From: Lachnospiraceae bacterium
GTDB lineage: Bacteria > Bacillota > Clostridia > Lachnospirales > Lachnospiraceae
NCBI GenBank assembly: GCA_900168235.1
Contig: FUZG01000005.1
Span: forward strand, 186,001 to 250,000
Direction: 5' to 3'
DNA length: 64,000 nucleotides
Below the pieces are notes generated by a model. The model worked only from the letters and a program-made list of their open reading frames with translations, had not been told where the DNA came from and did no database searches. The translations under genes and the position numbers were made by a program. This document shows positions 11,468 to 59,624 of this stretch, one piece after another. Position 1 is the first letter of the stretch. Each line of letters begins with the position of its first letter.

Positions 11468-12124
11468 TTATGACAGTGTGATTCCTTCGAGATTAAAGAG
11501 CTCTCCGAGGGTCGTACCTGTCTGCGGTGTCATTATCCTTCGTATCGCTTCCATGGTCTCATGGACGCTTTCGCTGTCATGTACTTCATGATAGAGCTTT
11601 GCAGTGTTTTCTGCGTCTGTGAGACCGTCATGGGCGCGTCCCTGAAACTGGATTCCTATGGCAGTCAGGGCTTTATCCAGTGACGGTGACATTTCTAAAT
11701 TCAGCATTTTCTGAAATTCGTTCTGAAAATCCAGCCAGTGTTCTATCATATACGTGATTTCTTCTGTAGGCTGAATAGATTTCAGATCCATTTCTTTTTT
11801 TATCTGATTTAGGTCGTTTTTACTCCATGAGTATATTTCGTAATCTTTTTCACCGCACCATGCAACGAATCTGCCATAAACTTCTTCAAATTTTTCTGCA
11901 CCGGCAAGGGTTGCGGTCGTGATGCCTGTCAGATCTTCGTATTTTTTCCTGACTGCTTTGCTGTAGGCAGGTTTTACGTATTCTTTGAACCTGTCTGTGA
12001 CTTCACCGTTTTCTCCCAGCACGACAGCACCGATCTCGATAGTCTCATACTTGCATATTTTGCTTTCTTCCCGATATTCCCTATCAAGAGGATGCATTTC
12101 CAGGTCTATAAATATTTTTCTCAA
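11468..12124 (-). CDS. DEDDh-family 3'-5' exonuclease
   Basis: A 218-residue protein of the RNase T / DnaQ-like exonuclease superfamily, resembling the KapD/ERI-1 subgroup. The acidic exo I motif is FIDLEMH (D7, E9), and the HD exo III motif appears as AHDGLTDAENTAKL. It starts with TTG: GGGGAG lies 6 nt before it, and the next Met would remove the essential acidic residues. It converges with the AraC-type gene, 17 bp apart. Its natural substrate (RNA or DNA) is not evident. Known subgroup members trim small structured RNAs. Confidence 0.86.
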   Translation of the reverse strand: MRKIFIDLEMHPLDREYREESKICKYETIEIGAVVLGENGEVTDRFKEYVKPAYSKAVRKKYEDLTGITTATLAGAEKFEEVYGRFVAWCGEKDYEIYSWSKNDLNQIKKEMDLKSIQPTEEITYMIEHWLDFQNEFQKMLNLEMSPSLDKALTAIGIQFQGRAHDGLTDAENTAKLYHEVHDSESVHETMEAIRRIMTPQTGTTLGELFNLEGITLS

Positions 12125-12222
12125 ACCTTACTCCCCGTTTCATTTTGTATCTCAATTATAGTCCCGAAACGGATGTGTGAAAACCTTTAGATTTGCTGTT
12201 TATTACTGAAATATATACGCAG

Positions 12223-12366
12223 GATACTGTTCACTCGCTTACAGCTCGCTCACGTAACAGATTTTGCTACAAAATCGACTTCGTCGATGGGCAAAATCCA
12301 ATGGCTATCCCACTTTCTTGGTCGTAAACTCCGCAGTAAATGCTCCGTTTACGTCTGAACTGTAAC
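12223..12366. mobile_element. MITE-like structured repeat, copy 1 (144 bp)
   Basis: The ends GATACTGTTCAC and CTGAACTGTAAC are imperfect inverted repeats, and the element is flanked by the 8-bp direct repeat ATACGCAG on both sides (identity extends to ATACGCAGGA). Internal hairpin A is GATTTTGC with GCAAAATC, enclosing ATCGAC-TTC-GTCGAT. Hairpin B is CGTAAAC with GTTTACG. Two more copies occur at 31298 and 39800. This copy fills most of the 311-bp gap between the exonuclease and toxin genes. Confidence 0.85.
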
Positions 12367-12435
12367 ATACGCAGGACACCACTCACGTGCATAATCTATG
12401 ACTTTTGAAATGGGCAATGCTTCGCATTTAAAAAT

Positions 12436-12765
12436 TCAAAGATTCTTTTCCCTATCCTGAAGATTATGTAAAATTCTCCGCACTTCCATAATCTTCCTGT
12501 CTTTGTCTTCCGGAATAACGACGTAATATATTATGTAATTCTTCACATAAATTCGATAATAAGGGTATTTTCGTTCCTTCATCGAGTGATATGGCTCAAA
12601 CGACTCAGCATAAGGCAGTCTTTCTAATATAGCAGCCTCAACTGAATCCGTAAGCTCATTTGCCGCTGTCTGGTTCTGAAGTACCTTTGCAAGATACATG
12701 ACGCACTCTTCGAGATCATCATAGAACATCGGAAGATATCTCAAGGAGTACTTGATATTACTCAT
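12436..12765 (-). CDS. RelE/ParE-family toxin
   Basis: A 109-residue protein with the RelE/ParE fold signature: an N-terminal helical pair (YLPMFYDDLEECVMYLAKVL) and C-terminal beta strands (YRIYVKNYIIYYVV, IMEVRRILH). RelE members cut mRNA on the ribosome and ParE members inhibit gyrase; which applies here is not visible. Its ATG overlaps the end of the antitoxin gene by 8 bp, the usual toxin-antitoxin layout. It lies immediately beside MITE copy 1. Confidence 0.85.
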   Translation of the reverse strand: MSNIKYSLRYLPMFYDDLEECVMYLAKVLQNQTAANELTDSVEAAILERLPYAESFEPYHSMKERKYPYYRIYVKNYIIYYVVIPEDKDRKIMEVRRILHNLQDREKNL

Positions 12766-13015
12766 TTATCTGACTCCTTAATTTAGAGAAAACCTCATCA
12801 TGTGTCATTCTCTCCGAATGTTTAGACGCATACTCATCTGCTTCGTCCAATGCCTGCTCAACATTTCGCGTCATTCTTGAATATGCATCTATGCTCATCA
12901 CTACCATCGAACCATAACCATTTTTTGTCAAAAACACAGGTTCTCCGCCATTTACAGCGGTCTCTATATCCGTAAATTTATTTCTAAGATCAGAAACAGG
13001 TCTTATTGTTATCAT
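12758..13015 (-). CDS. Phd/YefM-family antitoxin
   Basis: An 85-residue antitoxin. The N-terminal ITIRPVSDLRNKFTDIE and FLTKNGYGSMVVMSIDAY are typical of the Phd/YefM DNA-binding domain, and a charged C-terminal tail would wrap the toxin. The ATG at 13015 was preferred because AAGGAGG lies 3-10 nt upstream. The pair is expected to autoregulate its own promoter. Confidence 0.88.
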   Translation of the reverse strand: MITIRPVSDLRNKFTDIETAVNGGEPVFLTKNGYGSMVVMSIDAYSRMTRNVEQALDEADEYASKHSERMTHDEVFSKLRSQINE

Positions 13016-13108
13016 GGCGACCTCCTTAAAAAACATTTCTTATCATTACTTTATCAAAATTATGATATCGAGTCAATTACACCAGCCATCCTCCGTTTTT
13101 TGTTATTA

Positions 13109-31297: not shown

Positions 31298-31444
31298 GTT
31301 ACTGTTCACTCGCTTACAGCTCGCTCCAGTAACAGATTTTGCCAATTAAATCGCCTTCGGCGATGGGCAAAATCATATTGGCTTTCCTTGGTTATTGACT
31401 GCAATCTCCGCAGCAAAGTGCTCCGATTGCCTGTGAACAGTAAC
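31298..31444. mobile_element. MITE-like structured repeat, copy 2 (147 bp)
   Basis: The ends are a perfect 12-bp inverted repeat, GTTACTGTTCAC and GTGAACAGTAAC, flanked on both sides by AACTTTTA (8-bp duplication). Hairpin A is GATTTTGCC/GGCAAAATC enclosing ATCGCC-TTC-GGCGAT. Hairpin B is GCAATC/GATTGC. It occupies most of the 409-bp gap upstream of pgi. A short fragment resembling the left end (ATCACTCGCTTACTCAAC) lies just before it at about 31275-31292. Confidence 0.88.
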
Positions 31445-39799: not shown

Positions 39800-40000
39800 G
39801 TTACTGTTCACTCGCTTCCAGCTCGCTCACGTAACGGATTTTGCCAATTAAATCGCCTCCGGCGATGGGCAAAATCCAATGGCTTTTCATCTTTCTTGGT
39901 CGTAAACAGCTAAAGCATACACTCTCACTAAGCTCACATTCGTTCGCTAAGTGTTCGTAGCATCCGCAGCGTAGTGCTCCGTTTACGTGTGAACTGTTAC
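39800..40000. mobile_element. MITE-like structured repeat, copy 3 (201 bp)
   Basis: The ends are GTTACTGTTCAC and GTGAACTGTTAC, flanked by CCCTGAAT and CCCAAAAT (6 of 8 identical). Hairpin A is GATTTTGCC/GGCAAAATC enclosing ATCGCC-TCC-GGCGAT; hairpin B is CGTAAAC/GTTTACG. It carries about 55 extra bases between the arms of hairpin B. It fills the 349-bp gap between the YghZ-like gene and the dehydrogenase gene. Confidence 0.87.
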
Positions 40001-54811: not shown

Positions 54812-55747
54812 TTATCTCATTCCATCAAACCGGTCATTATTAGCATTTCCATCATTCTGATAACCATTTCCGTTATATCCGTTCTGGTTATATGTATTCT
54901 GACCATATCCATTCTGGTTGTATCCGCTCTGGTTATAGCTATTCTGGTTATAGCTATTCTGGTTATAGCTATTCTGGTTATAACCGTTCTGAACACCGTT
55001 ATTACCGGGATTATATCCGTACTGACCTGCACTATTCTGCGGGTAGCCATACCGATCATAGCTGCTCTGACCGTAGTTATTATTCTGCGGATAGCCATAC
55101 TGATCATAGTTATTTTGACTGTAGTTATTATTCTGAGAATAACCATACTGACCGTAACTATTCTGACCATATCCGTTCGGCGCGGAATTTCCGAAATAAC
55201 CACCGTTCATTTTATTATTTTCATAAATATACTGGTACTTGCTGCTGAAACCGATTATAAGCCATGCAAGCCAGGGCATTACCAGTATGAGTAGCAGAAA
55301 CAGAGCCGGTGCATTATACGCTTCGATAAAATAATAATCAAGATATAATGACATTGCCGTGAGACTCAATGATGCCATGATAGTTATAATTCCAAAAATT
55401 ATCAGGAATATAGCCGTTCCAAAACTCAGATCAGTGTCAGCATATCCAAACATCCCACTCATTCCTATGCCGGCAAAAATTATAATTCCGAAAAGGAATA
55501 TCGTTAATACGATTATATTTACGATCTGCAAGATCACTATCACATTTGCCATTTTTTCACGTTTGGCGATCTTTCCGATCATGATCGTATTATAGAATGG
55601 AATTATGCATTTCCATCCTTCCTCTCCAGCCTTTGTAAACATCTTCCAGAGACCGATATATGTCAGGACTAAAAAAATCAGATTAAATCCTATCCTGAGC
55701 AAATTGATCAATAACTGTACGCTTTCAAGCTGATCTACATATTCCAT
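54812..55747 (-). CDS. DUF5684 membrane protein with Q/N/Y/G-rich C-terminal tail
   Basis: A 311-residue protein. The first 190 residues are a four-helix DUF5684 domain with WKMFTKAGEEGWKCIIPFYN, paralogous to the protein at 20747. The last 120 residues are almost only Gln, Asn, Tyr, Gly and Ser in repeats such as YGQNSYGQ and YNQNSYNQNSYNQ. In the DNA these appear as perfect 18-bp tandem repeats near 54930-54980. The tail looks prion-like and may form condensates or bind polymers. Function unknown. ATG 55747 has GGAGAG upstream. Confidence 0.83.
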   Translation of the reverse strand: MEYVDQLESVQLLINLLRIGFNLIFLVLTYIGLWKMFTKAGEEGWKCIIPFYNTIMIGKIAKREKMANVIVILQIVNIIVLTIFLFGIIIFAGIGMSGMFGYADTDLSFGTAIFLIIFGIITIMASLSLTAMSLYLDYYFIEAYNAPALFLLLILVMPWLAWLIIGFSSKYQYIYENNKMNGGYFGNSAPNGYGQNSYGQYGYSQNNNYSQNNYDQYGYPQNNNYGQSSYDRYGYPQNSAGQYGYNPGNNGVQNGYNQNSYNQNSYNQNSYNQSGYNQNGYGQNTYNQNGYNGNGYQNDGNANNDRFDGMR

Positions 55748-59467: not shown

Positions 59468-59526
59468 CTGACTCACATCATCCATATTGTAATGAGCGTT
59501 CCCTACTCATTACGCAGGACGCTCTC

Positions 59527-59624
59527 TTTCGAAACGAACTCACTACCTACGCTGCCATTATGCAGATCAGGTTAAACGGGTTTAATCTCAGCCTGTGTCA
59601 GGCACCCCGGGATCTTCGTTTTAA
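59527..59624 (-). ncRNA. TPP riboswitch (THI element)
   Basis: On the minus strand the conserved GGGGTGCC, CTGAGAT, ACCTGATCTG and GCGTAGG blocks occur in the correct order with the P1 stem. It precedes the ykoF-E-D-C operon. A small hairpin (59489-59513, GTAATGAG/CTCATTAC) lies between the aptamer and the terminator. Confidence 0.95.

Follow-up and report, generated by a model that had tools for sequence, protein, structure and literature searches.

A hairpin-bearing repeat at three places in the window

A 144-nt repeat at positions 12223–12366 (+) of the window, by which we mean the whole 64-kb stretch of DNA analysed, raises the question of whether its two internal hairpins are kept by selection on their structure and, if so, whether folded DNA or RNA is the form selected. 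The first-pass annotation had compared three copies of the repeat and proposed, from paired double changes between them, that structure is maintained. We delimited copy 1 by alignment to its family and by its TIRs. It lies between exact 8-bp target site duplications (TSDs), ATACGCAG, at 12215–12222 and 12367–12374. The left TIR, GATACTGTTCA (12223–12233, +; family form GTTACTGTTCA), has an 11-nt core that is also present on IS66-family elements, and the right TIR, TGAACTGTAAC (12356–12366, +), was placed by family alignment; the two pair at 9 of 11 positions. A 36-nt 5' unit (12223–12258, +) is closed by an internal TIR core in inverted orientation (..CGTAAC). Hairpin A (12260–12298, +) consists of an outer stem, GATTTTGC/GCAAAATC (12260–12267/12291–12298, +), a 5' bulge, an inner stem, ATCGAC/GTCGAT (12274–12279/12283–12288, +), and the loop TTC. 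Hairpin B (12323–12353, +) has the stem CGTAAAC/GTTTACG (12323–12329/12347–12353) and an apical part GCA-GTAAA-TGC (12333–12343, +).

Copy 2 (31298–31444, +; 147 nt) has the TSD AACTTTTA on both sides, and copy 3 (39800–40000, +; 201 nt) lies between flanks, CCCTGAAT and CCCAAAAT, that are alike at 6 of 8 positions; the approximately 55 nt by which copy 3 exceeds the usual 146 form a further hairpin-like insert within hairpin B. The arms of hairpin A read ATCGCC/GGCGAT in both of these copies, and those of hairpin B read TGCAATC/GATTGCC in copy 2 and CGTAAAC/GTTTACG in copy 3. All of the arm letters given in the first-pass annotation were found in the sequence, and its double changes were read correctly, these being A-T to C-G in hairpin A and A-T to T-A together with T-A to C-G in hairpin B, as was the loss of one end pair from hairpin B of copy 2. 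Three copies in one window by themselves prove little about covariation; larger sets do.

On one side copy 1 is flanked by an exonuclease-family gene (11468–12124; PF00929, RNase_T) and on the other by genes for a ParE-type toxin (PF05016, E 9e-7) and a Phd/YefM antitoxin (PF02604, E 9.2e-10) at 12436–13036 (−). Elsewhere the window holds a TPP riboswitch (59526–59619, −; RF00059, 63.8 bits) and a set of TATTCTG-rich direct repeats (54895–55176; 48 nt and 15-nt spacing).

The repeat belongs to a MITE family of Lachnospiraceae

The host genome contained 45 matches to the family at E≤0.001, and matches were present in 21 of 48 genomes of the window's genus. At least 97 stretches of public genome contigs matched as well, and among the 80 matches listed the titles were Lachnospiraceae or Butyrivibrio. 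A scan of 397 genomes from the same bacterial family with a covariance model (R1) detected the repeat in 42, representing 37 of 334 genera, and a wider model (R2) matched 7 of 391 genomes drawn class-wide, all 7 in that same family and the host included; the two rates are not directly comparable because the models and the genome draws differ. Among 398 genomes, hairpin A had a match beyond the family (L404, E 7.8e-5), which we discounted as probably due to chance, and viral contigs contained no exact match to one 29-nt pattern.

Of 145 copies, 115 measure 144–147 nt, and 146 nt is the commonest length. An exact 8-bp TSD borders 84 of 117 parsed members, and a TSD matching at 7 or more of 8 positions borders 99 of the 117, as compared to a mean of 1.3 and a maximum of 6 in shuffled data. 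Diverged copies retain the duplication at lower frequency (exact in 24 of 52, at least 7/8 in 35 of 52), and in some genera the TIR starts with GTAAC. The repeat is thus multi-copy and dispersed, is bounded by 11-nt TIRs and a TSD of fixed 8-bp length, and has no coding capacity, all as expected of a MITE; an autonomous partner with the same TIR was found in relatives, not in the host genome. We consider it almost certain that the repeat belongs to a gene-less MITE family of the Lachnospiraceae. No name for this family was found in listings of open-licence papers, which is no proof that it is unpublished.

Several unusual arrangements were observed among the family loci. Solo 36-bp 5' units are rare, with an exact 8-bp TSD in 2 of 43 rows (CAAAGCCA at approximately 3265 on the reverse strand of L105 and CAGCAACA at approximately 2991 on the reverse strand of L182) and a 7/8 match in 2 more; were these genuine, they would represent transposed units of very small size. 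A strict solo-unit pattern, which does not fit the L182 variant, had 0 matches in 48 genomes. A tandem pair of copies (L312:1501–1798) has the same 8-bp duplication, GATATACT, between the copies and on both flanks. In several places (L191, L129, L145), fragments of the MITE 5' part are joined to a second repeat containing CCTTTTGACCCTGACATC. Diverged copies were also found at four contig edges (L029, L030, L031, L045), the fourth being cut off; three of these adjoin an apparent 23S rRNA start, presumably reflecting an old insertion into an rRNA spacer.

Variable stems and conserved loops

The intact copies that were read share one organization, in which a 5' unit of approximately 30–36 nt with a terminal inverted TIR core is followed by hairpin A and then by hairpin B. 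Hairpin A comprises an outer stem, a 5' bulge, an inner stem and, in most copies, a three-letter loop, while hairpin B comprises a stem with an apical CA-G-Y..R-TG. The stem letters vary freely between genera, as illustrated by the hairpin B arms ACGGACTTTGCA/TGCAAAGTCC, CCTAGCCTATCA/TGATAGGCTAGG and CCACGCCAATCA/TGATTGGCGTGG. In 52 of 52 rows the first letter is T in loop A and G in loop B, letters that the parse itself demanded and that a free alignment, judged by eye, also shows. The bulge mostly has A[TA] at its start and AA at its end. Folding of the single-stranded DNA exceeded that of shuffled sequences on both strands, with z-scores of −3.3/−3.6 for the window copy and of −6.8 to −8.7 for two diverged copies.

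The hairpins can be replaced or enlarged. Copies in G439 (L343, L358, L377 and others) retain hairpin A and the TIRs and have an unrelated hairpin (TTTTGGCATATTTATGCCAAAA or close to it) in place of hairpin B. Subfamilies of 201 nt and 251 nt (window 39800–40000; L200, L202) hold more hairpin-like inserts in hairpin B or A, and because of these inserts the loops appear to accept cargo.

Paired positions covary across the family

Covariation was assessed with a tree-aware test implemented in our own R-scape-like script, not in R-scape. From 151 distinct copies, 108 were parsed by a loop rule, and 63 remained after near-identical rows were removed; this set, parsed around the loops, contains 26 near copies and 37 from the wider family. 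Against a null in which substitutions were moved between columns on the tree, 7 of 2,080 column pairs were significant at E<0.05, and all 7 lie in the hairpins (A2, A3, A4, A6, B8, B9 and the loop-closing pair of B). A version of the test confined to 30 pairs found significance for 10 of 19 hairpin pairs and for 0 of 11 TIR pairs, and the result was the same under a second null that preserves column rates. The loop parse takes the best-paired candidate position and so carries a mild bias towards pairing, a choice of which sequence-only alignments are free. In a sequence-only alignment of 64 sequences treated as near relatives, taken from the window's genus and from public genome-contig loci, covariation was weak, which counts against the explanation given below: 1 of 10,011 column pairs was significant at E<0.05, this being an inner pair of hairpin A.

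Counts of changes gave a similar result. In a 51-copy alignment that had been fitted to the structure, 233 both-sided changes were found versus 65.0 ± 6.8 in shuffles, and 95.5% of cells were paired versus 25.8–34.1% when slid. For hairpin A alone there were 142 both-sided changes versus 50.6 in shuffles. Diverged or truncated copies were dropped from these and related sets, numbering seven for the 63-row and 52-row sets and for the recount of hairpin B, six for the free alignment and five for a plain count of hairpin B. Alignment A1 included 39 of 46 representatives and alignment A3 included 42 of 47 hairpins, five further copies of the A3 source set having given no hairpin or a repeated one; one further set was made up of 36 of the 48 loci L308–L355 and 13 others.

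Pairing by chance, or a palindrome in decay, would fit three copies in a single window. This explanation is refuted by the significance of the 63-copy test; the excess of both-sided changes in the 51-copy and hairpin A sets and the spread of the family over 37 genera also speak against it, and we assign it a negligible probability. The claim of maintained hairpins, first made from three copies, passed when examined in the larger alignments, by the significant pairs as well as by the both-sided changes. The stems change yet stay paired, the letters of the loops and bulge are conserved, and single mutations are rarer in the stems (see below); the best reading of these data, and in our judgment a very probable one, is that the hairpins are selected for their structure.

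Single-copy mutations disfavour arm-to-arm correction

Paired changes might also arise with no selection on pairing, if template switching during replication used one palindrome arm as the template for its partner. Such a process would account for near-perfect palindromes, for double changes and for the lack of a preference for wobble pairs. We examined single-copy mutations in 82 copies that form 9 clusters at ≥96.5% identity. Singletons occurred at 6 of 3,836 site-copies in the stems versus 34 of 5,083 in the linker and 5' unit, and are thus approximately four times rarer in the stems (p=3e-4). In the TIRs, by which the copies had been chosen, singletons occurred at 10 of 1,804 site-copies, about the linker rate. 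Because the TIR sites mutate like the linker, the depletion in the stems is not simply due to selection for mobility. The 82 closely alike copies contained one compensated pair and 4 single-sided pair changes, whereas approximately 13 doubles would be expected if half of the neutral stem mutations were copied, by our own estimate from the mutation rate of the linker and 5' unit. Furthermore, divergence of the stems alongside conservation of the loops and bulge is not what neutral correction would predict. Mutational correction of the palindromes is accordingly disfavoured, and template switching in place of pairing selection is improbable.

Folded DNA or RNA as the selected form

Selection on an RNA transcribed from one strand is expected to leave G.U pairs common and A.C pairs rare. 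We determined pair types in 52 non-redundant copies, derived from 110 parsed copies, for hairpin A and for pairs 1–3 and 7–9 of hairpin B; pairs 4–6 of hairpin B were left out, being mismatched in the window's subfamily. The 624 stem pairs comprised 590 Watson-Crick, 5 G.T, 11 A.C and 18 other pairs. A plain count of hairpin B, with 20 G.T and 43 A.C, was discarded as inflated by constitutive mismatches, the recount giving 7 and 10, respectively. As a control, 17 tRNAs from the fetched loci contained 33 G.T and 0 A.C, an imperfect comparison since counts from the tRNA finder may be limited to permitted pairs. The tolerance of wobble pairs expected for a structured RNA was not seen on the strand shown. 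As the stems are nearly all Watson-Crick, folded DNA or RNA from both strands is favoured over RNA from one strand. A.C pairs outnumbered G.T pairs by 11 to 5 (p=0.21), and insertions between tandem genes were in the opposite orientation in 33 cases versus the same orientation in 15 (p=0.013); this excess and this bias weakly tilt the data towards an RNA of the opposite strand.

The hairpins could act as RNA in read-through transcripts, where they would serve as a stabiliser, a processing site or a terminator. Consistent with such a role, insertions avoid crude ORFs (19 of 108 lie inside one, as compared to 85.8% of random positions), the orientation of insertions between tandem genes is biased, and the RNA folds on both strands. 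For other bacterial MITEs, transcription and folding within mRNA are described in the part of PMC3733652 drawn on here, which was likewise counted in favour of RNA. Because insertions occur in both orientations, both strands would have to fold, and wobble would also be excluded. Against a role as RNA are the near absence of wobble pairs, as judged by the imperfect tRNA control, and the positions of the insertions, which show no particular preference for the 3' ends of genes (40 of 79 are nearer a 3' than a 5' end) and lie between divergent gene pairs in 27 cases and convergent pairs in 4. At the gathering threshold Rfam gave no match to the window copies, and at E≤1 it gave none to the elements of 20 loci. 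Taking these points together, we regard action in read-through transcripts as rather unlikely, and we place the chance that DNA and not RNA is the selected form at about even.

An IS66-family element shares the TIR core

A candidate mobiliser was found in three relatives (G003, G004, G005), which contain an element with orfA (frames of 102–114 aa) and TnpC (frames of 538–591 aa) that carries the 11-nt core of the MITE TIR, as GTTACTGTTCA or GTTACAGTTCA. TnpC matched PF03050 (IS66) above the gathering cut-off, with E-values of 3.8e-19 and 1.4e-20, and scored 125.8 and 168.6 bits against the NCBIfam IS66 equivalog (NF033517), under its cut-off of 180; these latter scores indicate that the partner is a divergent member of the family. 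One such element (L219; 2,193 bp) has the TSD GTTCATTT on both sides, and a second copy in the same genome (L218; 2,190 bp) has no TSD. In G005, two contig edges beside IS ends share AGCAAAGG (on opposite strands as printed), which would fit an 8-bp duplication provided that these contigs are adjacent at that point.

Hairpin A had 0 matches, with filters off, in 9 loci, of which 8 contain IS66 partner sequence and the ninth is L199; transposition of the IS itself therefore does not need hairpin A. Neither this TnpC nor any PF03050 match was detected in the host genome, a draft of 28 contigs, and for this reason the host copies look orphaned. On the strength of the shared TIR core, the MITE was probably moved in trans by an IS66-family transposase reading that core.

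Other candidates for the partner were rejected. TIR pairs 1.8–1.9 kb apart in G024 are IS4-family elements (443 aa) inside MITE ends, the TIR pairs of L131 and L182 enclose ordinary genes, and L199 (752 bp) is a shortened IS66 derivative, which led us to the actual partner. IS4-family insertions (443 aa; 18-bp TIR CAATGTCAGTAAGTTAAG) were found in MITE ends at four places (L195–L198, G024), which suggests a target preference.

The hairpin core in other backbones

The hairpins were also found outside the usual TIRs. In one genome (G780) a core of hairpin A, linker and hairpin B lies between quite different ends, e.g. ..TGACATCTTGAATC.. and ..AAGATGTCATG, and in another (G199) hairpin A occurs alone; among 7 sites read, 5 share the constant flanks CGGGAA and GTGG and 2 lack them. 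No GTAG/CGTC tag was seen by eye directly beside the hairpin at these 7 solitary sites. In the host genome, one core (L422) lacks the usual TIRs, and there is one relative of the GTAAC type (L423).

These arrangements raise the possibility that hairpin A, and perhaps hairpin B, is a REP-like unit that has a dedicated recognition protein and was captured between IS66-type ends. Solitary hairpin A in G199 and the A-B core between other ends in G780 would be explained in this manner, but the carriers of the family that were read mostly have the TIR-bounded form, and we consider such a capture doubtful. An extended version, to which we give similarly little credence, is that the core might be a separate, letter-flexible module of folded DNA, selected as a folded strand and having its own recognition protein, that would have been captured by at least two unrelated types of ends (the IS66-type TIRs and putative TGACATCTT-type ends) and would also occur alone in REP-like form.

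Combined explanation and comparison with known systems

Putting the evidence together, the explanation that we moderately favour is that the repeat is a MITE mobilised in trans by an IS66-family transposase, with its hairpins retained as folded DNA. The hairpins would be retained because the folded DNA, either a cruciform or a single-strand hairpin formed during replication, is recognised or is needed for mobility or persistence, and this is the least certain step. The bulge and loops may provide contact letters, with the stems serving as a letter-independent scaffold. The function of the hairpins is in any case inferred from sequence. Covariation is usually taken to indicate structured RNA; strong, nearly wobble-free covariation in a family-wide mobile element points to structure at the level of DNA or of both strands. 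If true, the family offers a natural setting, rich in different stem sequences, in which to study hairpins and cruciforms in bacterial DNA, and it calls for caution in the discovery of RNA genes by covariation.

The bacterial MITEs ERIC, NEMIS, Bcr1, RUP, EFAR and Nezha differ from the Lachnospiraceae MITE in their TIR, TSD length and core. As far as they are described in the part of PMC3733652 drawn on here, these elements are likewise short, gene-less and TIR-bounded, mostly intergenic, present in many copies and strongly folding. The full-length IS66 elements of L219 and L218 share the 11-nt TIR core with the MITE, and L219 also the 8-bp TSD; the MITE has the hairpin core and no orf, whereas the IS lacks hairpin A. 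The ends of IS200/IS605 elements have bulged hairpins as a possible protein target, similar to the hairpins of the MITE, but single-strand Y1 transposition is not known to make 8-bp TSDs such as those that border the MITE. The GTAG and CGTC families of REP/RAYT, as covered by the same part of PMC3733652, also show complementary stem differences between sub-families as well as bulges, and the constant flanks at most solitary hairpin A sites are a further likeness; the Lachnospiraceae family differs in that no GTAG/CGTC tag was seen and that its main form has TIRs and TSDs. For bacterial MITEs, that part of PMC3733652 makes no mention of bulged hairpins that covary family-wide and have conserved loops. 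The type of element is known; what is unusual in the Lachnospiraceae MITE is the family-wide, nearly wobble-free covariation with a conserved bulge and conserved loops, together with the apparent exchange of the core between backbones.
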